Assembly (NCBI RefSeq): GCF_040782645.1
Contig: NZ_CP160403.1
Coordinates: 4,809,001 to 4,873,000 of the forward strand
Direction: 5' to 3'
DNA: 64,000 nt
From: Streptomyces sp. HUAS ZL42
GTDB taxonomy: Bacteria; Actinomycetota; Actinomycetes; Streptomycetales; Streptomycetaceae
Of the stretch, positions 6,819-62,681 are shown in pieces (the first letter of the stretch is position 1; the number at the start of each line of letters is the position of its first letter). The translations under genes were made by a program, and so were the position numbers. Under the pieces are notes generated by a model that saw nothing but the letters and a program-made list of their open reading frames with translations, ran no database searches and had not been told where the DNA came from.

Positions 6819-7026
6819 GCGAACAGGATAGATACAACACGCACTTATGAGGCGTCACCATCCACCATGCGGACCGGTGACGGACGCCACACGCGGAACT
6901 CCGAATTTGCGTACGACTGTCGCACAACCTCTCGTGCTACTTACGTGTCACACACGTGCGGCCCCACCTTCTTCTCTCCAACTCGGCCGCATTTCCGGGG
7001 CATTCGACGTATTCGGGGTATTTGAG

Positions 7027-7926
7027 TTGATAACCGCCACCAAGGGTTTCCGTGTCCGCAGGGCCGCCGCCGTCGCCGTGACGACCGCCGCAGTGCTCGC
7101 CACCGGAGCTCTCACCGCGGCACCCGCGCAAGCTCTCACGACGCCCACCATCACCGCCAAGGGCGGGTTCCTGATGAACAGCGCGACCGGCACGACGCTC
7201 TACGCCAAGGGCGCCGACACGAAGAGGCTCACCGCCTCCACGACGAAGATCATGACCGCGAAGGTCGTCCTCTCGCAGTCGAACCTGAACCTGGACGCCA
7301 AGGTCACCATCAAGAAGGCGTACAGCGACTACATCGTCTCCAAGGGCGCCTCGTCGGCACACCTGATCGTCGGCGACAAGGTCACCGTCCGCCAGCTGCT
7401 CTACGGGATGATGCTGCCGTCCGGCTGCGACGCCGCGATGGCCCTCGCCGACAAGTTCGGTACCGGCACGACCGTGTCCGCGCGCACGAAGTCGTTCATC
7501 TCGAAGATGAACACGATGGCCACGAGCCTCGGCATGACGAACACGCACTTCGACTCGTTCGACGGCATCAGCAACGGCTCCAACTACTCGACGCCGCGCG
7601 ATCTGACGAAGCTCGCCCGGAGCGCCATGAAGAGCACCACGTTCAAGAGCGTCGTGAAGACCAAGTCGTACACGGCCAAGACGATCACCAGCACCGGCTC
7701 CACCCGCACGATGGCCGCGTGGGCCAACACCAACACGCTGCTCGGCTGGAACGGCACGCTCGGCGTGAAGACCGGTTCCGGCACCTCGGCCCAGTACTGC
7801 CTCGTCTTCGCCGCCACGCTCAACGGCGAGTCGGTGATGGGCACCGTCCTCGCCTCGTCCTCCGCGGCCAACCGCACGACGGACGTGAAGAAGCTGATCA
7901 CCTACGGCTACGCCAAGATCAGCTGA
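7027..7926 (+). CDS. Secreted DD-transpeptidase/carboxypeptidase of the Streptomyces K15 type (S11)
   Basis: Numbered from the proposed TTG start, the protein has a signal peptide with Arg-rich n-region and APAQA cleavage box near residues 31-36. The penicillin-binding motifs are S71-TT-K74, S132-G-C134 and K248-T-G-S251. An SxC instead of SxN second motif is the documented feature of the Streptomyces K15 DD-transpeptidase. The spacing (61 and 177 residues from the active Ser) and surrounding text, for example NLNLDAKVTIKKAYSDY, match that enzyme. It would trim or cross-link peptidoglycan stem peptides outside the cell. The start is uncertain because the frame is open to 6847; TTG 7027 follows GGGG at 7015-7018. 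Confidence 0.92.
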   Translation: MITATKGFRVRRAAAVAVTTAAVLATGALTAAPAQALTTPTITAKGGFLMNSATGTTLYAKGADTKRLTASTTKIMTAKVVLSQSNLNLDAKVTIKKAYSDYIVSKGASSAHLIVGDKVTVRQLLYGMMLPSGCDAAMALADKFGTGTTVSARTKSFISKMNTMATSLGMTNTHFDSFDGISNGSNYSTPRDLTKLARSAMKSTTFKSVVKTKSYTAKTITSTGSTRTMAAWANTNTLLGWNGTLGVKTGSGTSAQYCLVFAATLNGESVMGTVLASSSAANRTTDVKKLITYGYAKIS

Positions 7927-7942
7927 CGCCGCGCACTCCGTG

Positions 7943-7976
7943 AACGGGCCCGCCGCGACTCTGCGGCGGGCCCGTT
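7943..7976. terminator. Bidirectional stem-loop terminator
   Basis: AACGGGCCCGCCGC (7943-7956) and GCGGCGGGCCCGTT (7963-7976) form a perfect 14-bp stem with a 6-nt loop. It lies between two convergent genes. Confidence 0.85.
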
Positions 7977-7981
7977 GCCAC

Positions 7982-8449
7982 TCATCGGTACGCGTCCGCG
8001 GTGATGGCCGCGAGCGCCTCGGCCAGGGCGGAGCGGAGTTTGTCGTGGGCCGGTCCCGGGCTGTGTTCGGGGGCCGTGCGCTCCTCGCCGTAGAGCCACA
8101 CCGGGGCGCGCCGGCGCTCCTGAGGCTCCCAGTGGTAGCGGGCGTGGACGTGCGCGTGCAGATGGTTCCAGAAGTTGCCGAGGATCTCGTAGTTGACGCG
8201 GTAGAACTCCGGGTCGGCTGCCGAGCAGACCTGCTGGACCGCTTCGCCCAGCAGGGAAAGATCCATCAGGAAGCCGGCCCGGTCGGCACGCGAGAGGTCG
8301 GTCAGATGGTCCGCGCTCTCGTGGACCAGCAGGCAGTAGCCGGGCAGGAACTGCGTGCTGCCCAGGACGGCCCAGCCGGTCCGCATCCGGTGCAGGACGT
8401 TGGGTTCGTCGCCCTGTCTGAGTACGTCGATCCAGTCGGTGTCCGACAC
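7982..8449 (-). CDS. HIT-like domain protein
   Basis: A protein of about 155 residues beginning VSDTDWIDVLRQGD. It carries a histidine-triad-like motif NHLHAHVHARYHW near residue 110, typical of nucleotide hydrolases and transferases acting on diadenosine polyphosphates or AMP-conjugates. The sequence around it (FYRVNYEILGNFWNHLHAHV) fits the HIT fold with the second His cluster. The frame is open a further 31 codons upstream, but that part is Arg/Pro-rich and looks non-coding. The ribosome site GGGGAAGGCGGA precedes the GTG at 8449. Confidence 0.75.
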   Translation of the reverse strand: MSDTDWIDVLRQGDEPNVLHRMRTGWAVLGSTQFLPGYCLLVHESADHLTDLSRADRAGFLMDLSLLGEAVQQVCSAADPEFYRVNYEILGNFWNHLHAHVHARYHWEPQERRRAPVWLYGEERTAPEHSPGPAHDKLRSALAEALAAITADAYR

Positions 8450-8546
8450 CCTGTTCCGCCTTCCCCTTTTTCGGCTGTGGTGCTCCCGGAAACGCCGGTC
8501 GCCCCGCCGCGCCGGAGGCGGGACGGGGCGACCGTGGCTCACCGGG

Positions 8547-9929
8547 TCAGGCCCAGGTGATCAGCTTCTTCGGCTGCTCCAGGATCGCCGCCACGTCCGC
8601 CAGCACCTTGGAGCCCAGCTCGCCGTCCACCAAGCGGTGGTCGAAGGACAGCGCCAGGGTGGTCACCTGACGCGGCTTCACCTTGCCCTTGTGGACCCAC
8701 GGCTGGAGCCTGATCGCACCGACCGCGAGGATCGCGGACTCGCCGGGGTTGAGGATCGGCGTGCCGGTGTCGACGCCGAAGACGCCGACGTTGGTGATGG
8801 TGACGGTGCCGCCCTGCATGGCCGCCGGGGACGTTTTGCCCTCGCGCGCCGTGCCCACCAACTCGCCCAGCGCCTCCGCCAGCTGCGGAAGGGTCTTGTC
8901 GTGCGCGTCCTTGACGTTCGGGACGATCAGGCCGCGGGGGGTCGCCGCCGCGATGCCCAGGTTGACGTAGTGCTTGACCACGATCTCCTGGTTCGCCTCG
9001 TCCCAGGACGCGTTGATCTCCGGATGGCGCTTGATCGCGACGAGCAGGGCCTTGGCGATCAGCAGGAGCGGGTTCACCCGCAGGCCCTGCATGTCCTTGT
9101 CCTGCTTCAGCTCCTCGACGAGCTTCAGCGTGCGCGTCACGTCGACCGTCACGAACTCCGTGACGTGCGGCGCCGTGAACGCCGAGCCGACCATCGCCGC
9201 GGCCGTGACCTTGCGGACACCCTTGACGGGGATACGGGTCTCACGGGCCGTGTCGTACGTCGGTACGGGCGCGGGAGGCGCGGAAACAGCCGGCTCCGCC
9301 ACCGTCACCGGCTCGGGGGCCTGCGGCGGGGCCGCCGCCGCGTGGACGTCCTCGCGCGTGATGATGCCGTCGGGGCCCGACGGGGTGATCGTCGCCAGGT
9401 CGACGCCGAGGTCCTTCGCCAGCTTGCGCACCGGCGGCTTCGCCAGCGGGCGCGGCTTGGCCTGACCGTGGCCGTTCAGCTCGGACTGCAGCGCGGCGGA
9501 GGCCTCCTGCACCGGGACCTCCGGGCCCTTGCGCGGACGGCGCTTGGTGGAGGAGGTGGCCACGCCGTAGCCGACGAGGACGGGCGTGCGGCCCGTGCTC
9601 TCGGGCTTCGGCTCCTCATTCGGGGGCTCCGCCGTCTTCGGTGCGGGTGCCTCCGCCGGGGCCCCGCCGCCCGTCACGTCCACCGCGATGATCGGCGTGC
9701 CCACGTCGACCGTGGTGCCCTCGGGGAAGTGGAGGTCGCGGACCACACCGTCGTACGGGATGGGGAGTTCCACGGCCGCCTTGGCCGTCTCGACCTCGCA
9801 GACCACCTGGCCGTCCGTCACCGTGTCGCCGGGCTGCACGTACCACTTGAGGATCTCGGCCTCGGTGAGTCCCTCGCCCACGTCGGGCATCCTGAACTCC
9901 CGAACGGACGCTTCAGTCATCGTCGTCAC
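8547..9929 (-). CDS. bkdC: Branched-chain 2-oxoacid dehydrogenase E2 (dihydrolipoyl acyltransferase), copy 1
   Basis: About 460 residues. An N-terminal lipoyl domain has the lipoylated Lys in VETAKAAVELPIPYDG. A peripheral-subunit-binding domain (VRKLAKDLGVDLATITPSGPDGIITREDV) and a C-terminal acyltransferase domain follow, the latter ending with the catalytic SFDHRLVDG. E2 passes the branched acyl group from E1 to CoA, giving isobutyryl-, isovaleryl- and 2-methylbutyryl-CoA. These are starters for branched fatty acids and polyketides. GTG 9929 lies about 6 nt after GGAG; ATG 9920 is an alternative. It is third in the E1alpha-E1beta-E2 operon. Confidence 0.93.
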   Translation of the reverse strand: MTTMTEASVREFRMPDVGEGLTEAEILKWYVQPGDTVTDGQVVCEVETAKAAVELPIPYDGVVRDLHFPEGTTVDVGTPIIAVDVTGGGAPAEAPAPKTAEPPNEEPKPESTGRTPVLVGYGVATSSTKRRPRKGPEVPVQEASAALQSELNGHGQAKPRPLAKPPVRKLAKDLGVDLATITPSGPDGIITREDVHAAAAPPQAPEPVTVAEPAVSAPPAPVPTYDTARETRIPVKGVRKVTAAAMVGSAFTAPHVTEFVTVDVTRTLKLVEELKQDKDMQGLRVNPLLLIAKALLVAIKRHPEINASWDEANQEIVVKHYVNLGIAAATPRGLIVPNVKDAHDKTLPQLAEALGELVGTAREGKTSPAAMQGGTVTITNVGVFGVDTGTPILNPGESAILAVGAIRLQPWVHKGKVKPRQVTTLALSFDHRLVDGELGSKVLADVAAILEQPKKLITWA

Positions 9930-9939
9930 GACCTTCTCC

Positions 9940-10920
9940 TCAGTACGCCAGGGCACGGTCGACGGCGTCGAGCACCCGGTCCAGGCCCGGCAGGTACTCC
10001 TCCTCCAGGCGGGCCGGCGGGTACGGGGCGTGGTAGCCGCCGACCCTGAGCACCGGGGCCTCCAGGTGGTAGAAGCAGCGCTCCGTGATCCGGGCGGCGA
10101 TCTCCGCGCCGGAGCCGAAGAACACGGGGGCCTCGTGGACGACGACCAGCCGGCGGGTCTTCTCCACCGAGGTCTGGATCGAGTCGAAGTCGAGCGGTGA
10201 GACCGAGCGCAGGTCCAGGACCTCCAGGGACTTGCCCTCCTCGGCGGCCGCGTCGGCGACCTCCTGGCAGAGTTTGACCATCGGGCCGTAGGCGGCGAGG
10301 GTCAGGTCGGTGCCCTCGCGGACCACACGTGCCTTGTGCAGGGGGCCGGGGATCGCCTCGGTGTTGACCTCGGCCTTGTCCCAGTAGCGCCGCTTGGGCT
10401 CGAAGAAGATCACCGGGTCGTCGCTCTGGATGGCCTGCTGCATCATCCAGTACGCGTCGGAGGCGTTCGACGGGGAGACGACCTTCAGACCCGACACATG
10501 CGCGAAGAGCGCCTCCGGGGACTCCGAGTGGTGCTCGACCGCGCCGATGCCGCCGCCGTAGGGGATGCGGACGACGACCGGGAGCTTGACCTTGCCCAGC
10601 GAGCGCGCGTGCATCTTCGCGAGCTGCGTGACGATCTGGTCGTACGCCGGGAAGACGAAGCCGTCGAACTGGATCTCCACCACGGGGCGGTAGCCGCGCA
10701 GGGCGAGACCGATCGCCGTGCCGACGATGCCCGACTCCGCGAGGGGCGTGTCGATGACGCGGCTCTCGCCGAAGTCCTTCTGCAGACCGTCCGTCACACG
10801 GAAGACGCCGCCGAGCTTGCCGACGTCCTCGCCCATGACGAGGACCTTGGGGTCGGCCTCCAGGGCGCTGCGCAGCGACTCGTTGATCGCCTTGGCCAGG
10901 GCCATCTTCTCCGCTGCCAT
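9940..10920 (-). CDS. bkdB: Branched-chain 2-oxoacid dehydrogenase E1 beta subunit, copy 1
   Basis: 326 residues, starting MAAEKMALAKAINESLRSAL. Transketolase central-domain signatures are present: VMGEDVGKLGGVFRVTDGL, DTPLAESGIVGTAIGLALRG, RIPYGGGIGAVEHHSES and the C-terminal APVLRVGGYHAPYPP. Together with E1 alpha it forms the thiamine-diphosphate decarboxylase that acts on 2-oxoisovalerate, 2-oxoisocaproate and 2-oxo-3-methylvalerate. The ATG lies 2 nt beyond the E1 alpha stop (TGATCATG), indicating tight coupling. The frame is open far upstream of this ATG but without family similarity. Confidence 0.95.
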   Translation of the reverse strand: MAAEKMALAKAINESLRSALEADPKVLVMGEDVGKLGGVFRVTDGLQKDFGESRVIDTPLAESGIVGTAIGLALRGYRPVVEIQFDGFVFPAYDQIVTQLAKMHARSLGKVKLPVVVRIPYGGGIGAVEHHSESPEALFAHVSGLKVVSPSNASDAYWMMQQAIQSDDPVIFFEPKRRYWDKAEVNTEAIPGPLHKARVVREGTDLTLAAYGPMVKLCQEVADAAAEEGKSLEVLDLRSVSPLDFDSIQTSVEKTRRLVVVHEAPVFFGSGAEIAARITERCFYHLEAPVLRVGGYHAPYPPARLEEEYLPGLDRVLDAVDRALAY

Positions 10921-10922
10921 GA

Positions 10923-12101
10923 TCAGGCCCCCTCTACATCTGCGAACGACGCCTGGTAGGCGGCGAACTGGGCTCGCTCCTCGTCGACGAGCGCATGCCC
11001 GTCCGCGTACACGTTCTCGAACATGGCGAAGTGGTCCGGGTCCGGCATGGCACGGACCGCTTCGCGCACTCGCCTGCCCAACGCCTCGCTCTCGGCCTCG
11101 AGTTCCGCGAAAAATCCCTCGTCCGCGTGGTTTGAGGCCTCCAGGTAGCGGCGAAGCCGCAGGATCGGGTCCTTCGCCTCCCAGGCCAGCCGCTCCTCGT
11201 CGCCCCGGTAGCGGGTGGGGTCGTCGGAGGTGGTGTGGGCGCCCATGCGGTAGGTGTACGCCTCGACCAGGGTCGGGCCCTCGCCGCTGCGGGCACGCTC
11301 GAGGGCCCACTTGGTGACGGCCAGGGACGCCAGGACGTCGTTGCCGTCCACCCGTACGCCCGGGAAGCCGAAGCCCTGCGCGCGCTGGTAGAGCGGCACA
11401 CGGGTCTGCTTCTCGGTCGGCTCGGAGATCGCCCACTGGTTGTTCTGGCAGAAGAACACGACCGGGGCGTTGTAGACCGCGGAGAACGTGAACGACTCGG
11501 CCACGTCGCCCTGGCTGGAGGCGCCGTCGCCGAAGTAGGCGATGACCGCGCTGTCCGCGCCGTCCTTGGCGATGCCCATCGCGTAGCCCGTGGCGTGCAG
11601 CGTCTGGGAGCCGATGACGATCGTGTAGAGGTGGAAGTTGTTGCCGTTCGGGTCCCAGCCGCCGTTGTTCACGCCGCGGAACATGCCGAGCAGGTTGGTC
11701 GGGTCGACGCCACGGCACCAGGCGACGCCGTGCTCGCGGTAGGTCGGGAAGACGTAGTCGTCGTCGCGCAGGGCCCGGCCGGAGCCGATCTGGGCGGCCT
11801 CCTGGCCCAGCAGCGACGCCCACAGGCCCAGCTCGCCCTGGCGCTGCAGGGAGGTGGCCTCGGCGTCGAAGCGACGGGTGAGCACCATGTCGCGGTACAG
11901 GCCGCGGAGCTCTTCGGGGGTGATGCCGGCGACGTACTTGTCGTACTCGGCGTTCTCGACACGCTCGCCCTCGGGCGTCAGCAGCTGTACGAGCTCGGGC
12001 TCGGCGTGTGGCGATTTCCTTGCGGTCGTGCGCTTGCCGGCCGTGCTCTTGGTACCGGCGCTGCGTCGCGGCTTGCGCGGGGCAGTGCTCTCCACGGTCA
12101 C
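10923..12101 (-). CDS. bkdA: Branched-chain 2-oxoacid dehydrogenase E1 alpha subunit, copy 1
   Basis: 392 residues. The thiamine-diphosphate motif is GDGASSQGDVAESFTFSAVYNAPVVFFCQNN in outline (GDG at the start, NN at the end). The phosphorylation-loop-like RMGAHTTSDDPTRYR is also present. A Lys/Arg/Thr-rich N-terminal extension of about 35 residues precedes the catalytic domain. The GTG at 12101 has a perfect GGAGGAG ribosome site 6 nt upstream. This is the promoter-proximal gene of the bkd operon; an extended palindrome lies 190 nt upstream. Confidence 0.95.
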   Translation of the reverse strand: MTVESTAPRKPRRSAGTKSTAGKRTTARKSPHAEPELVQLLTPEGERVENAEYDKYVAGITPEELRGLYRDMVLTRRFDAEATSLQRQGELGLWASLLGQEAAQIGSGRALRDDDYVFPTYREHGVAWCRGVDPTNLLGMFRGVNNGGWDPNGNNFHLYTIVIGSQTLHATGYAMGIAKDGADSAVIAYFGDGASSQGDVAESFTFSAVYNAPVVFFCQNNQWAISEPTEKQTRVPLYQRAQGFGFPGVRVDGNDVLASLAVTKWALERARSGEGPTLVEAYTYRMGAHTTSDDPTRYRGDEERLAWEAKDPILRLRRYLEASNHADEGFFAELEAESEALGRRVREAVRAMPDPDHFAMFENVYADGHALVDEERAQFAAYQASFADVEGA

Positions 12102-12290
12102 TCGTGCTCCTCCGTCGGTCCGGCTACCCGGGTTCGCCGGGTGCCAGTGCGGCTCACCTGAGGCCCCACGGACGCACAGGGTGGGTGCGGCCCGTGGGAA
12201 ACAGGCGTGACAGGTGCCCCGGCGAGCGCCCTGCAGTAGGCACGTTACCCAGTGCTCCACATTTCTGTGAAACCCCTCCTGACCTGCGTT

Positions 12291-12312
12291 TTTGCTTGGA
12301 TTTCCAAGTAAA
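12291..12312. promoter_or_regulatory. 22-bp near-perfect palindrome upstream of the first bkd operon
   Basis: TTTGCTTGGA (12291-12300), a 2-nt centre, then TCCAAGTAAA (12303-12312). The arms differ at one position only. It sits in a locally A/T-rich stretch of a GC-rich genome, 190 nt upstream of the E1 alpha GTG, and has the size of a dimeric repressor or Lrp/AsnC site. The rest of the 12102-12488 gap shows no gene. Confidence 0.55.
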
Positions 12313-12488
12313 TCGCGAAAGCCGGGAACAGTTGCTGGTCACAGCCTTGCAGGGGGCCGGAACAACGGCACGTTATCTCGGTGACCCAGGTCACCGGAAG
12401 AGTTCACCTCGGGCGGGTCTCGAGCATCACCCGCTACCGAAAGCGACCGACGGTTACTTTCTGTGACAGTAGTGAACCGGCCGAACGC

Positions 12489-14063
12489 TCAGCCGAGGCT
12501 CCCGAGCCCTGTCGCACCGCCGTTGCCGGTGCCGCCGTCGGCCGGGTTCGATCCGCCCGGGTCGGACGGCTCGGACGCCGGGTCGGAAGGGGACGCCGTC
12601 TGGGAAGCGCTCGCCCCGTCCGACGGCTCGTCACTCGGCTCGCTGCTGGCGGTCTCTGACGGCGTGTACGAGGGCGTGTAGGACGGCGAGTAGTGCGACC
12701 CGTCGTCCGAACCGGTGCCGTTGTCCGTCGAGTCGCCCGTCTCCTCGTCGGACGGCTCCTCGCTCGGCGTCGCGCTGGACTGCTCGTCCGTGGCGGTCTG
12801 CGAGGTGGTCGGCGACTGCGTCGTGCCTTTCCCCCCGCCACCGTTGCCCCCGTTGTTCAGGGCCAGCGCCACACCCGCGGCAATGGCGATCACCGCGAGC
12901 ACCGCGAGGACCCACAGCTTGCCGCGGCCGCTGCCCTTGTTGCCGTGGCCCTCGAAGCCGCCGTCGTCCCCGCCGCCGTACCCGCCGGGCAGCATCGGCT
13001 GCGGGATCTGCGTGGTGCCGGCGCCGTCGCCCGGGTGCGGCAGCACCGTCGTGTTCGCGAAGCCGCCCGCCGGGGTGTGCCGGCCGTCGTGCATCGTGAC
13101 CGGGCCGGTGTTCCAGGTACCGGTGTGCCCGCCCTGGTCGTACAGCATGGTCAGCCCGTACTGGACGAGGCCGCGCATCTCCTCGGCGGTCTGGAAACGG
13201 TCGTCCGGCTCCTTGGCGAGCGAGCGCATGACCAGACCGTCCAGCTCCGGCGGGGAGGCGTCCGAGACCTCCGACGGGGGCGTCGGGATGTCCTGAACAT
13301 GCTGGTAGACCACCGACAGCGGGGTCTCGCCGACGAACGGCGGCCGCAGCGCGAGGAGTTCGTACAGCAGACAGCCCGTGGCGTACAGGTCGGAGCGGTG
13401 GTCGACCGCCTTGCCGAGGGCCTGCTCCGGCGACAGGTACTGCGGGGTGCCCATGACCATGCCGGTCTGCGTCATCGTCGTGGACGCGCCGTGCAGGGCG
13501 CGGGCGATGCCGAAGTCCATCACCTTCACGGCGCCGTTGTCGGTGATGATGACGTTCGCCGGCTTGATGTCGCGGTGCACGATGCCGTGCTGGTGCGAGT
13601 AGGCGAGCGCCTCGAGCACACCGGAGACGATGATCAGGGCCTGTTCCGGGCCCGGCGCCTCGGCGTTGATCAGCAGGTCGCGGATGGTGCGGCCCTCGAC
13701 GATCTCCATCACGATGTACGGCACCGACTGGCCGCCCACGAAGTCCTCGCCGGAGTCGTAAACGGCGACGATGGCATGGTGGTTGAGCCCCGCCACCGAC
13801 TGGGCCTCGCGCGTGAAGCGGGCCTTGGAGACCGGGTCCTCGGCGAGGTCGGCGCGCAGCAGCTTGACCGCCACGGTCCGCCCGAGGCGCACGTCCTCGG
13901 CGGCGAACACCTCGGCCATGCCGCCCCGGCCGAGTCTGCGGGTCAGCCGGTACCGGCCGTCACCGACAAGCCCGCCGTTACCCCACAGCTCCGGCGCGTC
14001 TGACATCCCGCCGCCAGTCGCCTCGGGGTCGGACGGGCCCTGAGCGCGCTGCTGCTGTGCCAT
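12489..14063 (-). CDS. Transmembrane serine/threonine protein kinase with acidic extracellular tail
   Basis: 524 residues. The kinase domain spans about 38-300, with Gly-loop RLGRGGMAEVF, Lys67 in VAVKLLR, catalytic HRD at 163-165 (Asp165) and DFG at 183-185. A Gly-rich juxtamembrane segment leads to one membrane helix at about 383-402. The C-terminal 120 residues are a Ser/Thr/Asp/Pro low-complexity extracellular region (repeated SYTPS and EPSD units) with no PASTA repeat. It is therefore PknB-like in catalysis but unlike PknB in its sensor. It is divergent from a second kinase gene. Confidence 0.95.
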   Translation of the reverse strand: MAQQQRAQGPSDPEATGGGMSDAPELWGNGGLVGDGRYRLTRRLGRGGMAEVFAAEDVRLGRTVAVKLLRADLAEDPVSKARFTREAQSVAGLNHHAIVAVYDSGEDFVGGQSVPYIVMEIVEGRTIRDLLINAEAPGPEQALIIVSGVLEALAYSHQHGIVHRDIKPANVIITDNGAVKVMDFGIARALHGASTTMTQTGMVMGTPQYLSPEQALGKAVDHRSDLYATGCLLYELLALRPPFVGETPLSVVYQHVQDIPTPPSEVSDASPPELDGLVMRSLAKEPDDRFQTAEEMRGLVQYGLTMLYDQGGHTGTWNTGPVTMHDGRHTPAGGFANTTVLPHPGDGAGTTQIPQPMLPGGYGGGDDGGFEGHGNKGSGRGKLWVLAVLAVIAIAAGVALALNNGGNGGGGKGTTQSPTTSQTATDEQSSATPSEEPSDEETGDSTDNGTGSDDGSHYSPSYTPSYTPSETASSEPSDEPSDGASASQTASPSDPASEPSDPGGSNPADGGTGNGGATGLGSLG

Positions 14064-23543: not shown

Positions 23544-24965
23544 TCACAGGGTGCGCAGCAGCACCGCGGGCTGTTCCACGCAGTCCGCCACGTACCGCAG
23601 GAAGCCGCCCGCCGTGCCGCCGTCGCACACCCGGTGGTCGAAGGTGAGCGAGAGCTGCACGACCTGCCGCACCGCCAGTTCGCCTTCGTGCACCCACGGC
23701 TTGGGGACGATACGGCCGACGCCGAGCATGGCCGCCTCGGGGTGGTTGATGATCGGTGTGGAGCCGTCGACGCCGAACACCCCGTAGTTGTTCAGCGTGA
23801 ACGTGCCGCCGGTGAGATCCGCGGGAGTGAGGGTGCCCGCGTGGGCGGCCTCGGTCAGCCTGGCGAACTCTGCGGTCAGCGACTCGGCGTTGCGCGCGTG
23901 CGCGTCCCGTACGACGGGGACGACGAGCCCCCGATCGGTCTGGGCGGCGAAACCGAGGTGGACGTGATCCAGCCGTACGACCTCCCTGGCCTCCATGTCG
24001 ACCATGGAGTTCAGCTCGGGGAACCGGGCGAGGGCCGCCGTGCAGATACGGGCGAGAAGGGCGAGCAGGGAGATCTTCGGTCCTCCCGCTGCGGGGGTCT
24101 GGGGGTGTCCCCCGGAAAAACGCTGCATGACGGCCCGCGCGCGCATGAGCTCCGTGGCGTCGGCGTCCACCCAGCAGGTCGCGTCCGGAATCTCGCGGCG
24201 GCTGCGGGAGAGCTTGTCGGCGACGGCACCCCGGACACCCTTGAGCGGGATGCGGGTGCCGCCGGGGGCGGCTGCGGCAGGGGCGGCGGCCGGTGCGGGT
24301 ACCGGTGCCGCCACGTGCTCGTGGGGCGCCGTCGACGGCTGGGCCGCCCTTCCCTGCGCGGCGGCGGCCCGCAACGCGTACTCCACGTCCGCCCGCAGAA
24401 TCAGTCCGTCGGGGCCGGAGCCCGTCAACTCCCGCAGATCGAGGCCGTTCTCGCGGGCGAGCCTGCGCACGAGCGGGGAGATCACCGGCACGGGGCCCTC
24501 GGCGCCGAGGCCGTTCGCGGCAGGCACGTCGGGCGCCGTGGGAGCAGCCGTGGGCGCCGTGGGAGCAGCCGTGGGCGCCGAAGCCGTCCGGGGCGTCGGC
24601 CCCGTCGGTGCTGCCGGCCGCACCCGCCGGCGTCGGGCCGGAGGCGCGCCCGTGCCGTAGCCCACGAGGACGTTGCCCGAGCTCTCGCCCGACGCCTCGG
24701 TGTCACCGCCGGAGGCCGGCGCGCCCACGGCCACCGTCAGCAGCGGGGCTCCGACGGGCAGTTCCGTGCCCTCCTCGCCGAAGCGGGCGGTGACGACACC
24801 GCCGTAGGGGCAGGGCACGTCGACCAGCGCCTTGGCCGTCTCGACCTCGACGACCGGCTGGTCGACGGCGACGACGTCGCCGACCTGGACCAGCCAGCGG
24901 ACGATCTCCGCCTCGGTGAGCCCCTCCCCGAGGTCGGGGAGCTTGAACTCCAGCACCTGTGCCAT
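23544..24965 (-). CDS. Branched-chain 2-oxoacid dehydrogenase E2, copy 2
   Basis: 473 residues. The lipoyl domain has Lys in VETAKALVDVPCPYGG. An Ala/Pro/Thr hinge contains a 21-nt unit repeated exactly at 24538-24558 and 24559-24579. The binding domain is VRRLARENGLDLRELTGSGPDGLILR, and the acyltransferase domain ends in TFDHRVCDGG with the catalytic His and Asp. It overlaps the E1 beta stop by one base (TGATG). It is clearly homologous to the E2 at 8547 but differs in the hinge and C-terminus, so the two operons are not a recent duplication. Confidence 0.92.
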   Translation of the reverse strand: MAQVLEFKLPDLGEGLTEAEIVRWLVQVGDVVAVDQPVVEVETAKALVDVPCPYGGVVTARFGEEGTELPVGAPLLTVAVGAPASGGDTEASGESSGNVLVGYGTGAPPARRRRVRPAAPTGPTPRTASAPTAAPTAPTAAPTAPDVPAANGLGAEGPVPVISPLVRRLARENGLDLRELTGSGPDGLILRADVEYALRAAAAQGRAAQPSTAPHEHVAAPVPAPAAAPAAAAPGGTRIPLKGVRGAVADKLSRSRREIPDATCWVDADATELMRARAVMQRFSGGHPQTPAAGGPKISLLALLARICTAALARFPELNSMVDMEAREVVRLDHVHLGFAAQTDRGLVVPVVRDAHARNAESLTAEFARLTEAAHAGTLTPADLTGGTFTLNNYGVFGVDGSTPIINHPEAAMLGVGRIVPKPWVHEGELAVRQVVQLSLTFDHRVCDGGTAGGFLRYVADCVEQPAVLLRTL

Positions 24966-25969
24966 CAGCTCTCGGCCTCCCATTGCAGACGCGCCACGGC
25001 GTCCAGGATCCGGTCGACGCCGGGCAGGTGGTGGCGCTCCAGCATCGGCGGCGGGTACGGGACGTCGAACCCGGCCACACGCAGCACCGGTGCCTCCAGG
25101 TGGTGGAAGCAGCGCTCCGTGACCCGGGCCGCGATCTCCCCGCCCGGCCCGCCGAACCCACCCGACTCGTGCACGACGACCGCGCGCCCGGTCCGCCGCA
25201 CCGAAGCGCCGACCGTCTCGTCGTCGAACGGCACCAGGGAGCGCAGGTCGACGACTTCGAGGTCCCAGCCCTCGGCCCGCGCGGCCTCGGCGGCTTCGAG
25301 GCAGACGGGCACGGACGGACCGTACGTGATCAGCGTGGCGCTCCGGCCGGGGCGCCGCACCACGGCACGGCCGATGGGTTCAACGTCCGTGGGGTGCTCC
25401 GGGTTCCAGGAGTCCTTCGACCAGTACAGGCGCTTGGGCTCCAGGAAGACGACCGGGTCGTCGGAGGCGATGGCGGCGCGCAGCAGCCCGTAGGCGTCGG
25501 CGACGGTCGCGGGCGTGACGACATGGAGCCCCGGAGTCGCCATGTAGTACGCCTCGGAGGAGTCGCTGTGGTGCTCCACACCGCCGATGCCGCCGCCGTA
25601 GGGGACGCGGATGGTGATCGGGAGCGGCATCGTGCCGCGCGTGCGGTTGCGCATGCGGGACACGTGCGAGATCAGCTGCTCGAACGCCGGGTAGGCGAAC
25701 GCGTCGAACTGCATCTCCACGACCGGCCGCAGACCGTACATGGCCATGCCCACGGCCGTGCCCAGGATGCCCGCCTCGGCCAGCGGCGTGTCCGTGCAGC
25801 GGTCCTCGCCGAACTCCTTGGCGAGACCGTCGGTGACGCGGAAGACACCGCCGAGGGTGCCGACGTCCTCGCCCATGACGTGCACGCTCGGGTCGGCGGC
25901 CATGGCGTCGCGCAACGCGCGCGTGAGGGCCTGCGCCATGGTGGCCGGCTTCACGGCGACAGTGGTCAT
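24965..25969 (-). CDS. Branched-chain 2-oxoacid dehydrogenase E1 beta subunit, copy 2
   Basis: 334 residues from ATG 25969, which overlaps the E1 alpha stop by 4 nt. It shows the same landmarks as copy 1: VMGEDVGTLGGVFRVTDGLA, DTPLAEAGILGTAVGMAMYG, RVPYGGGIGGVEHHSDSSEA and a C-terminal APVLRVAGFDVPYPP. It pairs with the adjacent E1 alpha to decarboxylate branched-chain 2-oxoacids. Confidence 0.94.
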   Translation of the reverse strand: MTTVAVKPATMAQALTRALRDAMAADPSVHVMGEDVGTLGGVFRVTDGLAKEFGEDRCTDTPLAEAGILGTAVGMAMYGLRPVVEMQFDAFAYPAFEQLISHVSRMRNRTRGTMPLPITIRVPYGGGIGGVEHHSDSSEAYYMATPGLHVVTPATVADAYGLLRAAIASDDPVVFLEPKRLYWSKDSWNPEHPTDVEPIGRAVVRRPGRSATLITYGPSVPVCLEAAEAARAEGWDLEVVDLRSLVPFDDETVGASVRRTGRAVVVHESGGFGGPGGEIAARVTERCFHHLEAPVLRVAGFDVPYPPPMLERHHLPGVDRILDAVARLQWEAES

Positions 25970-27167: not shown

Positions 27168-27181
27168 ACCGATTGTTCGGT
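27168..27181. promoter_or_regulatory. TetR-type operator candidate upstream of the second bkd operon
   Basis: ACCGATTGTTCGGT, with 5-bp arms around a 4-nt centre. The same palindrome (ACCGATCGTTCGGT) lies at 29954-29967. Both sit exactly 57 nt upstream of the start codon of a leftward operon. Confidence 0.6.
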
Positions 27182-27216
27182 TCGCCGGCACATTTTGGCT
27201 ACAGGCGCCTCAGCGC

Positions 27217-27238
27217 TGTGGACAAACGGTTCTCCACA
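27217..27238. other. Inverted pair of DnaA boxes
   Basis: TGTGGACAA (27217-27225) is an exact Streptomyces DnaA box on the minus strand. TTCTCCACA (27230-27238) fits the degenerate consensus on the plus strand. Together they form TGTGGA-N10-TCCACA between the bkd and Lrp-type genes, so the structure could also serve as an operator. Confidence 0.5.
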
Positions 27239-27283
27239 ACCTCCAATGAACGCAGTACGTCCATGGTAGAGAGGCGGGGGGAC

Positions 27284-27784
27284 ATGGCATCTGAACAAAT
27301 GGCCGAGGGCCCGGAAGCCGACTCGGCCCTGCCGCCCTCCCGCCCGCTGGACGCCATTGATCAGGACATCCTGCGGATGCTGCAGGTGGACGGCAGGGCC
27401 TCGATACGGTCGGTCGCCGAACGGGTCCACGTCTCGCGCGCCAACGCCTACGCCCGGATCAACCGGCTCGTCGAGGACGGCGTCATCCGCGGTTTCGGCG
27501 CCCGCGTCGACCACGAACGCGCAGGCCAGGGCACCTCGGCGTACATCACGTTGAAGATCGTCCAGAACACCTGGCGCACGGTGCGCGAACAGCTCGTCCG
27601 GCTCCCCGGCGCCGCCCACATCGCGTTGGTGGGTGGCGACTTCGACGTACTGCTCCTGGTGCACACGCCCGACAACCGGGCGCTGCGCGAGCTGGTGCTC
27701 ACCCGGCTCCAGGCGATCCCCGAGGTGCTCAGCACACGCACGCTGCTGGTGTTCGAGGAGGAGGACCTGGAACCGCAGGGGTGA
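27284..27784 (+). CDS. Lrp/AsnC family regulator, BkdR-like
   Basis: 166 residues. An N-terminal helix-turn-helix (LDAIDQDILRMLQVDGRASIRSVAERVHVSRANAYARINRL, residues about 27-67) is followed by the RAM ligand-binding domain (TSAYITLKIV to TRTLLVFEEEDL). Lrp-type BkdR proteins control branched-chain 2-oxoacid dehydrogenase operons in several bacteria. The divergent position next to the second bkd operon fits that role. ATG 27284 follows a GGGGGG run; an ATG at 27263 in the same frame is possible. Confidence 0.88.
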   Translation: MASEQMAEGPEADSALPPSRPLDAIDQDILRMLQVDGRASIRSVAERVHVSRANAYARINRLVEDGVIRGFGARVDHERAGQGTSAYITLKIVQNTWRTVREQLVRLPGAAHIALVGGDFDVLLLVHTPDNRALRELVLTRLQAIPEVLSTRTLLVFEEEDLEPQG

Positions 27785-27795
27785 GGCCTGCCCCG

Positions 27796-28386
27796 TCACC
27801 CGGACTGGCGCAGTCCTCCGAACACCAACTGCACCACCGCGTCCGCCACTTCGCGCTCGTTCATGCCGCGCCCGTCCGGCCGGTACCACTCGACGATCGA
27901 GTTGATCATTCCGAAGACCAGCCGGGTGGCGAGGCGCACCTCGACGTCGCCGCGCACGTCCCCCTCGGCGGCGGCCGCCTTCAGCAGCTCGGCCACCCGG
28001 TGGTCGAAGTCGCGGCGCCGCTCCAGGGCCCACCGCTCGGTGTCCGTGTTGCCGCGCACGCGCAGCAGCAGCGTCACGTACGGCAGTTCGGCGATGAGCA
28101 CCTCGACCATGCGCCGCACGACGTACTCCAGGCGCTCGGCGGCATGCCCCACGCGCGCGTGCTCCTCCTCGAGGATCCCGAACAGGCCGTCCAGTGCCCG
28201 GCTCACCGCGCGCCGCAGCAGCTCCTCCTTGCCCGTGACGTGGTGGTAGATCGACGACTTGGAGATGCCGGCCGCCTTGGAGAGGTGCTCCATGGAGGTG
28301 CCGTCGTAGCCGCGATCGTTGAAGACCTGGACCGCGACGGACAGCAGTGTCTCCGGGGTGTAGGTGTCGCGCTTGGCGGTCGTCAT
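27796..28386 (-). CDS. TetR family transcriptional regulator (PaaR-like)
   Basis: 196 residues from ATG 28386, overlapping the upstream dehydrogenase stop by 4 nt. The helix-turn-helix is LLSVAVQVFNDRGYDGTSMEHLSKAAGISKSSIYHHVTGKEELL (about residues 15-58). The C-terminal domain is the TetR_C type seen in regulators of phenylacetate and fatty-acid catabolism. It is co-transcribed with a 3-hydroxyacyl-CoA dehydrogenase and lies between two copies of an ACCGA-N4-TCGGT palindrome that I propose as its operators. Confidence 0.9.
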   Translation of the reverse strand: MTTAKRDTYTPETLLSVAVQVFNDRGYDGTSMEHLSKAAGISKSSIYHHVTGKEELLRRAVSRALDGLFGILEEEHARVGHAAERLEYVVRRMVEVLIAELPYVTLLLRVRGNTDTERWALERRRDFDHRVAELLKAAAAEGDVRGDVEVRLATRLVFGMINSIVEWYRPDGRGMNEREVADAVVQLVFGGLRQSG

Positions 28387-29897
28387 GGGGTGCCCTCCCG
28401 CTTCTCGGTGGCGTACGCGTGGCGGTAGAGCGCGAGGGACGGCGCATAGCGGCCGGAGGGGTCGCGCTGGTGCAGGTCGTCGAGGAGGGCGCAGGCCCAG
28501 CCGCGGCCGAGCCTGCGACTCCACTCGAAGGGACCGAGCGGGTAGTTCACGCCCAGGCGCATCGCGGTGTCGATGTCCTCCTCCGTGGCCACGCCCTTGG
28601 CGACGGCGTCGTGCGCCAGGTCGACGATCCGCGCCACCGTGCGGGCGACGATCATGCCGGGGACGTCACCGATGACGCTGACGGCCTTGCCGAGCGCCTG
28701 GAAGAGGCCGGTGGCCTCGGCGAGGGTGTGCGGGGAGGTGTCCTGGGATGCGGACAGGGCTATCCGGGTGGCCCTGCGGTAGTCGAGGGCGAGGTCGAAG
28801 TAGACGACGTCCCGGAACTCGACCGAGGTCTGGCCGTCGGCGAGCGCCAACTGGCCGCCGCCGGGCAGCACCAGGCGGGTGCCGTGGTCCTCTTCCTCCT
28901 CGCGGACCTGGATGCCCGCCTCGCGGATCAGGGCGAGCAGTTCGGAGGCGGGGCCCAGGTCACCCTCGGCGACCACGTACGCGGGCGGCCGGGCCTGCTC
29001 CGCGGTGTGCGGCTCGGAGCGCTCGGCACCCTCACAGTAGTCGTACCAGCCCTGTCCGCTCTTGCGGCCGAGCCGCCCCGACTCCACCAGCCGCCGCTGG
29101 GCGAGCGACGGCGTGAAGCGCACGTCCTGGAAGAAGGACTGCCACACGGAGTGCGTGACGGACTCGTTGACGTCCTGCCCGATGAGGTCGGTCAGCTCGA
29201 AGGCGCCCATCCGGAAGCCGCCCGACTCACGCAGGACCGCGTCGATCGTGGCGGGGTCGGCGCCCTGGGCCTCGTACACCGCGAATGCCTCGCCGTAGAA
29301 GGGCCGCGCGATGCGGTTGACGATGAAGCCGGGGGTGTCGGCGCAGGCGACCGGGCTCTTCCCCCAGGCGCGGGCCGTCTCGTACGCGCGCGTGGCCGAC
29401 GTGACGTCGGTGGCGAACCCGGAGACGACCTCGACCAGCGGCAGCAGCGGGGCGGGGTTGAAGAAGTGCAGGCCCACGAATCGGCCGGGGTTGCGCAGGA
29501 CGCCGCCGATGGCGGTCACCGACAGCGACGAGGTGTTGGTGGCGAGCAGGCAGTCCTCGGCGACGATGCCCTCCAGCTCGCGCAGCAGCTCCTGTTTGAC
29601 GTCCAGCCGCTCCAGGACGGCCTCGACGACCAGTGCGCAGTCCGCAAGGTCGGCGAGGCTCTCGGCGGGCGTGAGCCGGGCGCGTGCCGCGTCCCGGTCG
29701 GCCCCCGTGAGCCGGTCCTTCTCGACGAGCCGGTCGAGGCGTGCGCCGATCGCGGCCGCCGCTTCCCGGGCCCGCCCCGGGAGGGCGTCGTACAGCCGTA
29801 CGGGATGGCCCGCCACCAGCGCGACCTGGGCGATGCCCTGGCCCATGGTGCCGGTGCCGACCACGGCCACGGGGCTGCTGAGGTCGAGTGCTGTCAT
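28383..29897 (-). CDS. 3-hydroxyacyl-CoA dehydrogenase (PaaH-like)
   Basis: 504 residues. The N-terminal NAD-binding domain has VAVVGTGTMGQGIAQVALVAGH and the catalytic-pair region ATNTSSLSVTAIGGVLRNPGRFVGLHFFNP. It is followed by two C-terminal dimerisation domains (TPGFIVNRIARPFYGEAFAVYE, then NYPLGPFEWSRRLGRG). The two-domain-repeat length is typical of PaaH/PaaC enzymes of phenylacetate degradation, which oxidise 3-hydroxyadipyl-CoA to 3-oxoadipyl-CoA. It shares a regulatory gap with paaN. Confidence 0.92.
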   Translation of the reverse strand: MTALDLSSPVAVVGTGTMGQGIAQVALVAGHPVRLYDALPGRAREAAAAIGARLDRLVEKDRLTGADRDAARARLTPAESLADLADCALVVEAVLERLDVKQELLRELEGIVAEDCLLATNTSSLSVTAIGGVLRNPGRFVGLHFFNPAPLLPLVEVVSGFATDVTSATRAYETARAWGKSPVACADTPGFIVNRIARPFYGEAFAVYEAQGADPATIDAVLRESGGFRMGAFELTDLIGQDVNESVTHSVWQSFFQDVRFTPSLAQRRLVESGRLGRKSGQGWYDYCEGAERSEPHTAEQARPPAYVVAEGDLGPASELLALIREAGIQVREEEEDHGTRLVLPGGGQLALADGQTSVEFRDVVYFDLALDYRRATRIALSASQDTSPHTLAEATGLFQALGKAVSVIGDVPGMIVARTVARIVDLAHDAVAKGVATEEDIDTAMRLGVNYPLGPFEWSRRLGRGWACALLDDLHQRDPSGRYAPSLALYRHAYATEKREGTP

Positions 29898-29953
29898 GTG
29901 CGCGATCCTCCCGCACGGGGTTTTCCACAGATGCGGCAGGCCCCCTTGTCCCG

Positions 29954-29967
29954 ACCGATCGTTCGGT
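29954..29967. promoter_or_regulatory. TetR-type operator candidate between paaH-like gene and paaN
   Basis: ACCGATCGTTCGGT, a 5-bp-arm palindrome 57 nt upstream of the dehydrogenase ATG and 91 nt upstream of the paaN ATG. It nearly duplicates the site at 27168-27181. A lone DnaA-like box TTTTCCACA lies beside it at 29921-29929. Confidence 0.6.
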
Positions 29968-30058
29968 TACTCTAACTCTGTCCACCCGTTCCTGCCCATG
30001 GTTCCGCCCAGGTCATGAGCTCAACGAAGAGTTTCTTGAAACGAGGAGTTGGTCCCGC

Positions 30059-31747
30059 ATGGCCGCCGAACTGACCACGCACGACCTGATCGCCAAGCAT
30101 CGGCCCACCCTCGACCAGGCGCTGGAAGCGATCCGTACACGCGCGTACTGGTCCCCGCACCCCGAGCATCCGAAGGCCTACGGCGAGAACGGCAGCCTGG
30201 ACGCCGCGGCGGGCAGGGCCGCCTTCGACGCCCTTCTGGGCAACCGCCTCGACCTCGGCCAGCCCGGCACGGACGACTGGGTGGGCGGCGAGGTCTCGCC
30301 GTACGGCATCGAACTGGGCGTCGAGTACCCGCACGCGGACATCGACGTGCTGCTGCCCGCCATGAAGTCGGGGCAGCGGGAGTGGCGGGACGCGGGCGCG
30401 GAGATGCGCGCGGTGGTCTGTCTGGAGATCCTCAAGCGGATCAGCGACCGGACGCACGAGTTCGCGCACGCGGTCATGCACACCTCGGGCCAGGCCTTCA
30501 TGATGGCGTTCCAGGCTGGCGGCCCGCACGCGCAGGACCGCGGCCTGGAGGCGGTGGCGTACGCGTACGTGGAGCAGGTCCGCACGCCCGACACGGCCGA
30601 GTGGACCAAGCCGCAGGGCAAGCGCGACCCGCTGGCGCTCACCAAGCAGTTCACGCCCGTCCCCAGGGGCATCGCACTTGTCATCGGCTGCAACACCTTC
30701 CCGACCTGGAACGGCTATCCGGGCCTCTTCGCGTCGCTGGCCACCGGCAACGCGGTCCTCGTCAAGCCCCACCCGCGCGCGGTGCTGCCGCTCGCGCTGA
30801 CCGTGCAGGTCGCGCGCGAGGTGCTCGCCGAGGCCGGCTTCGACGCGAACCTGGTCGCGCTGGCCGCCGAGCGGCCCGGCGAGGGCATCGCCAAGACGCT
30901 CGCCATGCGCCCCGAGATCCGGATCATCGACTACACGGGTTCGACCGTGTTCGGCGACTGGCTGGAGGCCAACGCCCGCCAGGCGCAGGTCTACACGGAG
31001 AAGGCCGGCGTCAACACGGTGGTCGTGGAGTCGACGGGCAACTACAAGGGCATGCTGTCCAACCTGGCCTTCTCGCTGTCGCTGTACAGCGGCCAGATGT
31101 GCACCACCCCGCAGAACCTGCTGATCCCCCGCGACGGCATCCGCACCGACGAGGGTCCCAGGACCTTCGACGAGGTGGTCGCCGACCTCGCCCGCTCCGT
31201 CGACGGCCTCCTCGGCGACGACGCGCGCGCGAACGCCCTGCTCGGCGCCATCGTCAACCCCGACGTCAAGGCCCGTCTTGAGGCCGCTTCGGGACTCGGC
31301 GAAGTCGCCCTCGCCTCCCGGGAGGTCGCCAACCCGGAGTACCCGGACGCGGTGGTCCGCACTCCGGTGATCGTCAAGCTGGACGGCGCCAAGCCGGACG
31401 ACGAGGCCGCCTACATGAGCGAGTGCTTCGGCCCCGTCTCCTTCGCCGTCGCGGTCGACTCGGCGACCCACGCGGTGGAGCTGCTGCGGCGGACGGTCCG
31501 CGAGAAGGGGGCGATGACGGTCGGCGCGTACACCACCGACGAGGAGGTCGAGCGGATCGTCCAGGAGGTCTGCCTCGAGGAGGCGGCCCAGCTGTCGCTG
31601 AACCTCACCGGCGGGGTGTACGTCAACCAGACCGCCGCCTTCTCCGACTTCCACGGCTCGGGCGGCAACCCGGCGGCCAACTCGGCACTCACGGACGGGG
31701 CGTTCGTGGCCAACCGCTTCCGGGTGATCGAGGTCCGCCGGGAGGCT
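30059..31747 (+). CDS. paaN: Phenylacetic acid degradation protein PaaN (aldehyde dehydrogenase family)
   Basis: 563 residues from ATG 30059, about 10 nt after GGAG. It has the aldehyde dehydrogenase fold in its PaaN form: PRGIALVIGCNTFPTWNGYPGLFASLATGNAVLVKPHP (cofactor cleft), VVVESTGNYKG (general-base region) and SLYSGQMCTTPQNLLIP with the catalytic Cys. PaaN-type enzymes oxidise the semialdehyde formed by ring opening in the phenylacetyl-CoA pathway. The stop codon (31748-31750) lies in the terminus of an inverted-repeat element. Confidence 0.92.
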
Positions 31748-31940
31748 TAGGGCCCGTCCGGCGGATCAAGTCGCAGGAAAGCAGCGGCATCTGATCAGCG
31801 CGGGTGAGCGGGGCCCGGTGCGTCCGGTTGCGGGGCGGAGGAGGGAGCCGACACGATGGGGGAGTCGGCGACCGACGACAACGCGGCAGATGGGCGTGCC
31901 AGGTCCCGCGTCTGCGGCATGATCCGCTGGGCATGCGGGC
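31747..31940. repeat. About 190-bp imperfect inverted-repeat element
   Basis: The left end contains CGGATCAAGTCGCAG (31762-31776). The right end, near 31912-31927, reads CGGATCATGCCGCAG on the complementary strand, 13 of 15 bases matching. Like the element at 18005 it begins TTAGGGCCC, supplies the stop codon of the upstream gene and has no coding capacity. The ends differ in sequence between the two elements, so they are not copies of one another. Confidence 0.45.
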
Positions 31941-34843: not shown

Positions 34844-35185
34844 TCCGCCCCGTCTCCCCGATTCCGGTCCGTCGTCCGGCTGCCCGGCCGTGAGGCGCCG
34901 CACCGCCCCGGAGCACCGCCGTGCGGCGCTCGCACGGAACGGTACTCAGGCCCACCCGCCCGGCACAGCCCCCGCCGGTCCGGCACGGTACGCACCGCGG
35001 CCCGTTTGTCCACATCCGGGAGGTTGTCCACAGCACCGGCCCGCGGGTCGTCCACAGCGGGTGACACCTTACGACAGCCCCTCGCCCGAGCCGCCGCACA
35101 CCGTTCCCTTCTTCTAGAACCTGTTCTATCTTGACGATCCGTCAGATCAGGCATCGGGCCGGTGTGCGTGTGGGAGGGCGGGACC
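34844..35185. promoter_or_regulatory. Intergenic region with three DnaA boxes and a KstR-type palindrome
   Basis: TTGTCCACA at 35006-35014 and 35024-35032 are exact Streptomyces DnaA boxes. TCGTCCACA at 35048-35056 fits the degenerate consensus. Downstream, TAGAACCTGTTCTA (35115-35128) is a perfect palindrome matching TnnAACnnGTTnnA, the KstR operator pattern known from Mycobacterium and Rhodococcus. It lies 57 nt before the acyl-CoA dehydrogenase start. Confidence 0.6.
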
Positions 35186-39651: not shown

Positions 39652-39850
39652 GTCGACCGCCTCCCCCTCGCACATACGCACGAACTTCAATACGGACACG
39701 AACGCCGACTTCAGCACCGAATCCGACGCGAACATCAACTCGTGCAGACCGTACAGCCGGTGGCCGAAACGCGTCAGACCCTGTGGACAACTCCACTGCT
39801 GTGGAAAACCCTCGCGAGAACGCCCGAACCATCGCATGGGACAGTGCCGT
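39652..39850. promoter_or_regulatory. Divergent gap with two DnaA boxes
   Basis: TGTGGACAA at 39782-39790 is an exact DnaA box, and TGTGGAAAA at 39800-39808 is a weaker one in the same orientation, 18 nt apart. They sit just upstream of the epimerase gene. Confidence 0.5.
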
Positions 39851-62417: not shown

Positions 62418-62681
62418 CGGCCACCAGGCAGTGAACACAGCTCTGCCCAGGGCTATCCAGTGAGTTATCCACAGGTGTTTTCCACATGGGGAAAAGAAAG
62501 ACGATCTGTGGATAACCCGCTGAGTGTTGACGCCGGTGTGACGGAACTACCGGCGACCGAAAACCTGTTCGCCCCCTGTCTGACCTGCGCAAACGCGGGC
62601 CGGTGACAGGGGGCACAGTTGTTCCCGCACCGTATGCACAAGATCCGCCACACGCTGTGGACAACACGCGCCAGGTGAGCG
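62418..62681. other. Intergenic region with a four-box DnaA-box cluster
   Basis: TTATCCACA (62465-62473), TTTTCCACA (62478-62486), TGTGGATAA (62507-62515) and TGTGGACAA (62656-62664) lie within 200 bp. The first three flank an A-rich stretch (GGGGAAAAGAAAGACG). A stem-loop of GCCCCCTGTC (62571-62580) with GACAGGGGGC (62605-62614) may terminate crgA. No gene is visible. Confidence 0.65.

Follow-up and report, generated by a model that had tools for sequence, protein, structure and literature searches.

The 64,000-nt stretch of Streptomyces sp. HUAS ZL42 analysed here (the window; positions 4809001-4873000 of a 9.87-Mb chromosome) carries two nearly identical operator-like sites: site 1 in front of bkd2, an operon for the E1-alpha (E1a), E1-beta (E1b) and E2 subunits of a 2-oxoacid dehydrogenase, and site 2 between a paaH-like/tetR operon and paaN (Table 1). 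The best overall explanation, to which we assign a probability of about two in three, is that both sites belong to the regulon of PaaR, a TetR-family repressor of phenylacetate (paa) genes encoded between them, and that bkd2 is likely a phenylpyruvate dehydrogenase. An earlier sequence-only reading of the window had proposed that one acyl-CoA-responsive repressor links branched-chain 2-oxoacid oxidation with phenylacetate-type catabolism. The shared repressor is retained here, while the branched-chain cross-regulation gives way, in view of the linkage to paa genes, to a 2-oxoacid dehydrogenase of aromatic catabolism.

Judged from the window only, the evidence for matched operators is modest. 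The upstream regions of the two operons share an ungapped 13/14 match, moderately unlikely by chance and reached in 4 of 300 first-order Markov shuffles; the 14-mer is near-palindromic (10 of 14 positions), and at up to three mismatches the motif is not enriched in the window (12 found vs 10.6 expected). Cross-genome conservation settles that both sites are real, with overwhelming support far beyond chance. The main locus sample comprised the surroundings of the tetR ortholog from 100 of 149 other Streptomyces genomes, taken down the identity ranking, and the window itself (101 loci; identifiers beginning with G and L below are ours for genomes and loci). Site 1 shows no mismatch in any of the 97 sequences with an alignable E1a (the window and 96 of the 100 loci, leaving out L099, L107, L110 and L140), and 99 of the 101 loci have an exact site 2, which L139 and L141 lack. 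Conservation beside orthologous genes, whose lack the sequence-only reading had named as a refutation, comes out strongly in its favour.

Whole-genome counts in 150 Streptomyces genomes, with the reversed pattern as control, agree with the alignments. The exact site-1 14-mer is present, in one copy per genome, in 146 of them, against one match of the reversed pattern in the whole set. It is missing in G001, G037 and G121, all of which lack the TetR and bkd2 orthologs; in G010 the bkdR-E1a region reads N in the record, so that site 1 cannot be judged there and this genome was set aside as a counter-example. The degenerate motif ACCGAWYGWTCGGT matches 148 of the 150 genomes (three for the reversed control). 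The same motif was used to score a second sample of 80 named Streptomyces loci, which is not independent because its records partly overlap the main genome set: it occurs without mismatch before E1a in 80/80 and before paaH in 79/80. Conservation of the 14-mer exceeds that of its flanks, though the conserved block at site 1 is longer, extending into CCTCACCT and CATTTTGGCTAC on its two sides. The one letter in which the sites differ is itself fixed, T at site 1 and C at site 2.

The extended conservation at site 1, the fixed central T and a nearby TGTGGACAA box, present in 97 of 97 loci, would also be expected if the site-1 block were the core promoter of bkd2 and bkdR or an operator of BkdR, the divergently encoded Lrp/AsnC regulator, with its likeness to a PaaR site being secondary. 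This explanation is very unlikely, as the nearly palindromic 14-mer is common, with small changes, to the paaA, paaI/paaN and paaH promoters, and no such site lies between bkdR and E1a in 17 loci of other families that carry bkdR. We propose, from our own reading of the letters, a paaN core promoter whose 16-nt spacer contains operator 2 and a bkd2 promoter whose -10 element (AACAAT) lies inside operator 1, which would explain the fixed T at site 1. Site 2 is framed by CTTGNNC and TACTCT in at least 90 of 99 loci (counting the 12 commonest forms), and TTTTGGCTAC at the proposed bkd2 promoter is conserved in 82 of 97; a scan for consensus sigma-70 promoters found none at either site, which counts against these assignments.

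The start codons at 27111 (E1a) and 29897 (PaaH-like) are both 57 nt from their sites, a spacing that had been proposed as a shared feature of the two operons. It is true in the window but does not hold as a rule: both distances equal 57 in just 3 of 101 loci, and the spacing was rejected as a functional signal and is regarded as a coincidence. The distance from site 1 to E1a ranges from 47 to 145 nt (mode 61; 57 in 5 of 96 loci), and that from site 2 to paaH is 57 in 44 of 82. In 19 of the 101 loci tetR has no paaH next to it, and 17 of these carry site 2 at 48-154 nt ahead of tetR, which argues for tetR autoregulation.

A separate observation concerns the TGTGGACAA box, which looks like a DnaA-box-like motif, TTNTCCACAG, clustered around the chromosome centre. 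TTNTCCACAG occurs eight times in the window (27216-27225, 29921-29930, 35024-35033, 39781-39808 and 62465-62664) vs 0.15 expected and lies near site 2 in 88 of 99 loci; the genome holds 66 copies (18 for the reversed control), and 21 of these fall in the 4.83-4.99 Mb interval. The copies perhaps reflect replication-linked control near the origin. An assignment of the TGTGGACAA box as the BkdR operator was not supported, none being found in 14 other bkd2-type loci (13 from other families and one paralogous locus of the same genome).

The best solved match of the TetR protein is 2iai_A, ‘Putative transcriptional regulator SCO3833’ (349.5 bits); further PDB matches include 3vpr (PfmR), 3whb (fatty acid metabolism regulator) and 4w97 (KstR2). 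An ortholog at E < 1e-80 is present in 147 of 150 Streptomyces genomes, G001, G037 and G121 giving weaker TetR matches only. A class-wide search (E <= 1e-35; 394 genomes including Streptomyces) found PaaR-like proteins in 130 genomes, and 40 non-Streptomyces loci were then taken for inspection. A paa gene lies near the PaaR relative in 36 of these 40, namely paaA or paaK in 33 and only a paaN-type gene in three (L289, L308, L309), which supports a TetR protein of the phenylacetate kind as the best candidate for both sites. The other four loci (L304, L312, L314, L320) have no paa gene in the inspected stretch and speak against this assignment. For the sites and the shared regulon the support comes near the most that sequence data can provide, and action of PaaR at both sites is predicted with very high confidence.

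With 43 TetR matches in the genome, it could be asked whether the two sites are recognized by some TetR protein other than that encoded between them, the more so as some Streptomyces carry a second PaaR. This is even less probable than a pure promoter or BkdR function of site 1. The next best TetR match of the genome is 27% identical (61 vs 419 bits), and the highest identity of any other, 38%, extends over 58 residues; the tetR gene is, judging from these comparisons, the sole PaaR-like gene of this genome. The position of site 2 directly before tetR in 17 of 19 paaH-less loci likewise favours the local regulator, as does the lack of any motif match in G037 and G121, which have no ortholog, though the equally ortholog-less G001 has one. 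The second PaaR of some Streptomyces (L147, L148, L149) is 61-63% identical and adjoins paaK in L147 and L148; its recognition segment, GISKSSIYHH or GLSKSSIYHH, is nearly the same, and cross-talk with the bkd-linked PaaR is therefore likely.

At up to one mismatch the genome contains 12 distinct motif places, two of them in the window. Four of the others mark plausible members of a phenylacetate regulon. Two are perfect matches, one in front of a paaK-like gene and one separating a paaN paralog from paaI-paaK; two have a single mismatch and lie 26 nt ahead of paaA and about 0.4 kb ahead of the called start of a major facilitator superfamily (MFS) transporter gene, a candidate uptake system for phenylacetate or an aromatic acid. 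The PaaK match of the paaK-like gene (L146 6934-8214) is split over frames, and the gene is probably a decayed copy; a one-mismatch motif upstream of an MFS transporter gene is seen in two genomes (L143 18606, L149 11645). The DNA covered includes paaA in 42 of the 80 named loci, and in all 42 a site lies close to the beginning of the gene; it is identical to site 2 in 41 and carries a single mismatch in the other. Another 25 loci have at least 9 kb on that side and no paaA, and 13 have shorter DNA. The remaining six places weigh against a purely phenylacetate-related regulon. Three lie before genes without an obvious paa role, these being a Rieske-domain gene (no mismatch), a desaturase-family frame (one mismatch) and a DUF3291 gene, where the motif (one mismatch) ends 2 nt before the first ATG; a further one, at 562006, lies inside an open frame, and those at 3625848 and 6052281 have no clear target. 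On this evidence bkd2 and paa genes very probably share one controlling repressor of the PaaR type, and the single regulon once suggested for the two operons of the window would extend to a paa cluster 2.7 Mb away.

Assignment of bkd2 to aromatic catabolism rests on the recurrence of bkd2-type operons in or near paa clusters, including those of three Streptomyces without a bkd2 ortholog. At E <= 1e-100, 20 of 40 distant PaaR-bearing genomes have a bkd2-type E1a, which in six of the 20 (G362, G438, G493, G309, G387, G176) lies within 16 kb of paaR vs 0.14 expected at random, a proximity limit chosen after the data had been seen. G387 has the order E1a-E1b-E2 and then a PaaG-like gene; paaK, a gene for a bifunctional PaaZ, paaA and tetR complete this group of about 13 kb. 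Seven of 392 Streptomyces genomes lack a bkd2 ortholog (E <= 1e-140), and three of these (G037, G541, G649) have a co-directional E1a-E1b-E2 set about 0.9 kb upstream of paaA, with E1a identities of 59-61%. In G541 a PaaG-like crotonase lies between E2 and paaA; the PaaG-like genes of G541 and G387 both score below the PaaG cut-off. As to the other bkd2-less genomes, G121 and G001 are also without paaA, and G747 is 55% complete. In G141 (L348 10518-11655) the bkd2 E1a is split over two frames, the site, tetR and the rest being kept. Joint loss of paaA and bkd2 was not used as functional proof, as just two of the seven (G001, G121) lack paaA and G001 is 79% complete.

The genome under study itself holds, at about 2.07 Mb (L166, G000:C1:2062001-2082000, 6080-13352), a second bkd2-like E1a-E1b-E2 operon, separated by about 34 kb from the paaA gene in the paa cluster. 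It is accompanied by a paaJ-like thiolase gene (match in three pieces), a bkdR paralog and a paaN-family gene just under the family cut-off, and has no motif site at up to one mismatch. In an E1a tree, midpoint-rooted and without support values, the paa-linked E1a proteins group with bkd2, apart from bkd1, the other dehydrogenase operon of the window. An aromatic role of bkd2 appears on balance probable. Since its product is phenylacetyl-CoA, phenylpyruvate oxidation would explain control by PaaR, which branched-chain oxidation does not, and we think that bkd2 mainly makes phenylacetyl-CoA from phenylpyruvate.

Several observations weigh against so simple an assignment. Of the 20 distant genomes that have a bkd2-type E1a, 14 do not carry it within 16 kb of paaR, and the other 20 of the 40 PaaR genomes have no such E1a, so PaaR and bkd2 are not obligatorily tied. 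No ACCGNNCGNNCGGT site (one mismatch allowed) was found within 500 nt upstream of E1a in 20 loci of other families, and the absence of a site between bkdR and E1a in the 17 loci already mentioned points the same way; one site each was seen in G362, ahead of a bkdR-bkd operon, and in G493, past the end of bkdR. With E1a-proximal sites missing from these loci of other families, the PaaR site in front of bkd2 seems to be a trait of the Streptomyces lineage placed on an older association. The E1a protein passes TIGR03181, a pyruvate-type model, and its best solved matches are pyruvate dehydrogenase E1, followed by 2-oxo acid and 2-oxoisovalerate E1; its sequence does not fix the substrate. The Lrp-type bkdR beside bkd2 fits amino-acid control, and E1 of the bkdAB kind from S. 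avermitilis is reportedly active in vitro on branched-chain 2-oxoacids.

The sequence-only reading offers an alternative in which both operons are still under PaaR, but the substrates of bkd2 are indeed branched-chain 2-oxoacids and the repressor coordinates branched-chain with aromatic acyl-CoA oxidation. The evidence from the sites and the regulator is equal for this alternative, bkdR adjoins bkd2, and the available text of one source names SCO3829-3832 and gives SCO3829-3831 as (putative) branched-chain alpha-keto acid dehydrogenase subunits (PMC12323332). From its position beside bkdR and SCO3833, the bkd2 E1a is taken as the counterpart of S. coelicolor bkdA2/SCO3831. A branched-chain role of bkd2 is nevertheless unlikely, although clearly less so than either alternative considered above. 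The window has a separate operon, bkd1 (about 8559-11918), with an E1a about 40% identical (bkd1 vs bkd2: E1a 43%, E1b 56%, E2 39%), for which the motif scan at up to one mismatch gave no site. A bkd1-type E1a is kept in the bkd2-less G037 and G121, the 79%-complete G001 having neither; in addition, bkd2-type genes are found repeatedly within paa clusters or close to them, and branched-chain catabolism gives no phenylacetyl-CoA.

It is tempting to combine the preferred reading, PaaR control of an aromatic bkd2, into a single circuit, in which binding, repression, effector and substrate are all inferred. The TetR protein would be PaaR, a phenylacetyl-CoA-responsive repressor whose dimer sits on the near-palindrome ACCGAT(T/C)GTTCGGT. 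At site 2 it would fill the spacer of the paaN promoter, blocking it, and cover the paaH-tetR side (autoregulation); at site 1 it would cover the start of the bkd2 operon, and it would also occupy the remote paaA, paaI-K/paaN and related promoters. Rising phenylacetyl-CoA would release PaaR, as may be expected because such release is reported for PaaR of Burkholderia cenocepacia and Thermus thermophilus, and all units would be expressed. The bkd2 complex, as an arylpyruvate (phenylpyruvate) dehydrogenase, would convert deaminated phenylalanine to phenylacetyl-CoA, the operon thereby supplying the molecule that inactivates its repressor, and BkdR would contribute a second input that senses amino acids. 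For the complete scheme, comprising a dedicated arylpyruvate dehydrogenase under PaaR through which phenylalanine would enter the phenylacetyl-CoA pathway, positive feedback, a BkdR amino-acid signal and branched-chain oxidation left to bkd1 alone, we would put the odds barely above even.

The genes involved are compiled in Table 1. All three bkd2 subunits have full domains in the family-model scan. The paaH-like stop and the tetR start overlap as ATGA, both genes running leftward, and the label paaH-like was preferred because the protein scores 580 bits, under the PaaH equivalog cut-off of 669.4.

Table 1. Coordinates of the operators, putative promoters and genes of the bkd2-paaN region (window positions)
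Feature	Position	Strand	Basis or remark
bkd2 E2 acyltransferase	23544..24983	-	2-oxoacid_dh, E3_binding, Biotin_lipoyl
bkd2 E1b	24965..25966	-	Transket_pyr, Transketolase_C
bkd2 E1a, 381 aa	25966..27111	-	E1_dh; TIGR03181 above cut-off
Operator 1, ACCGATTGTTCGGT (plus-strand reading), before the leftward bkd2 operon	27168..27181	-	
Proposed bkd2 promoter: -35 TAGCCA (27201-27196), 18 nt, -10 AACAAT (27177-27172) in operator 1	27172..27201	-	inference
bkdR, Lrp/AsnC regulator, divergent from bkd2	27284..27784	+	HTH_AsnC-type, AsnC_trans_reg (scanned from 27281)
TetR-family repressor, predicted PaaR (SCO3833 ortholog, PDB 2IAI)	27796..28386	-	TetR_N, TetR_C_24 (PF00440, PF17932 above cut-off)
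PaaH-like 3-hydroxyacyl-CoA dehydrogenase	28383..29897	-	PRK08268, 643.6 bits
Proposed paaN core promoter: TTGTCC (29946-29951), 16 nt with operator 2, TACTCT (29968-29973)	29946..29973	+	direct reading
Operator 2, ACCGATCGTTCGGT, between paaH-like/tetR and paaN	29954..29967	.	
paaN, aldehyde dehydrogenase, PaaN_2 family	30059..31750	+	TIGR02288, 994.6 bits (cut-off 578.75)

The presence of two neighbouring ‘branched-chain’ operons in Streptomyces raises the question of why there are two, and a genus-wide PaaR site on one of them offers a testable answer. If the proposed reading is true, a regulon would be assigned to SCO3833, which was solved as 2IAI without an assigned function and named a putative regulator, and phenylpyruvate could enter the phenylacetyl-CoA pathway without passing through free phenylacetate. 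It would also be relevant to strain work, as both branched-chain CoA esters and phenylacetyl-CoA serve as precursors of antibiotics. A literature search found no PaaR-bkd link in Actinobacteria, RegPrecise tables lying outside the search, so that a database prediction may exist, and no paper naming SCO3833, SCO3834 or SCO3835. According to a survey of 2026, PaaR dominates among the regulators in Actinomycetes; the survey's main text, as far as available, mentions neither bkd nor ‘branched-chain’ (PMC13186573).

PaaR itself, its operator and its effector are already known from the accessible parts of the literature, also in Streptomyces, as is, from PglB/PglC, the idea of converting phenylpyruvate to phenylacetyl-CoA. 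PaaR of B. cenocepacia is likewise a TetR repressor of dispersed paa units; its 15-bp operator ACCGACCGGTCGGTT, validated by reporter and electrophoretic mobility shift assays, is matched by site 2 plus the next base at 13 of 15 positions, and the protein is released by ‘compound II’, read here as phenylacetyl-CoA, whereas no 2-oxoacid dehydrogenase is named among its targets in the text available (PMC9493321). In T. thermophilus, PaaR (TTHA0973) is a TetR protein in an operon with paaABCD that controls paaI and a phenylacetyl-CoA ligase gene and responds to phenylacetyl-CoA, but its core motif AACGNNCGTT differs, and the target table in the accessible text has no bkd genes (PMC6651687). Closer in taxonomy is PaaR of S. 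pristinaespiralis (SSDG_03033), a Streptomyces TetR protein described as a repressor of paa genes. Its putative site, AACGA-N4-TCGGT (PMC10933834), is one letter off the minus strand of site 2, AACGATCGGTCGGG; SSDG_03033 could correspond to the ortholog described here or to the 61-63% identical paralog. PglB/PglC of the same species belong to a biosynthetic (phenylglycine) cluster, unlike bkd2, and are likened to it by proposed reaction, not sequence; according to the passages available, they form a complex resembling pyruvate dehydrogenase, with phenylpyruvate as the proposed substrate and phenylacetyl-CoA as the proposed product (PMC7089894); this is the very reaction proposed here for bkd2.

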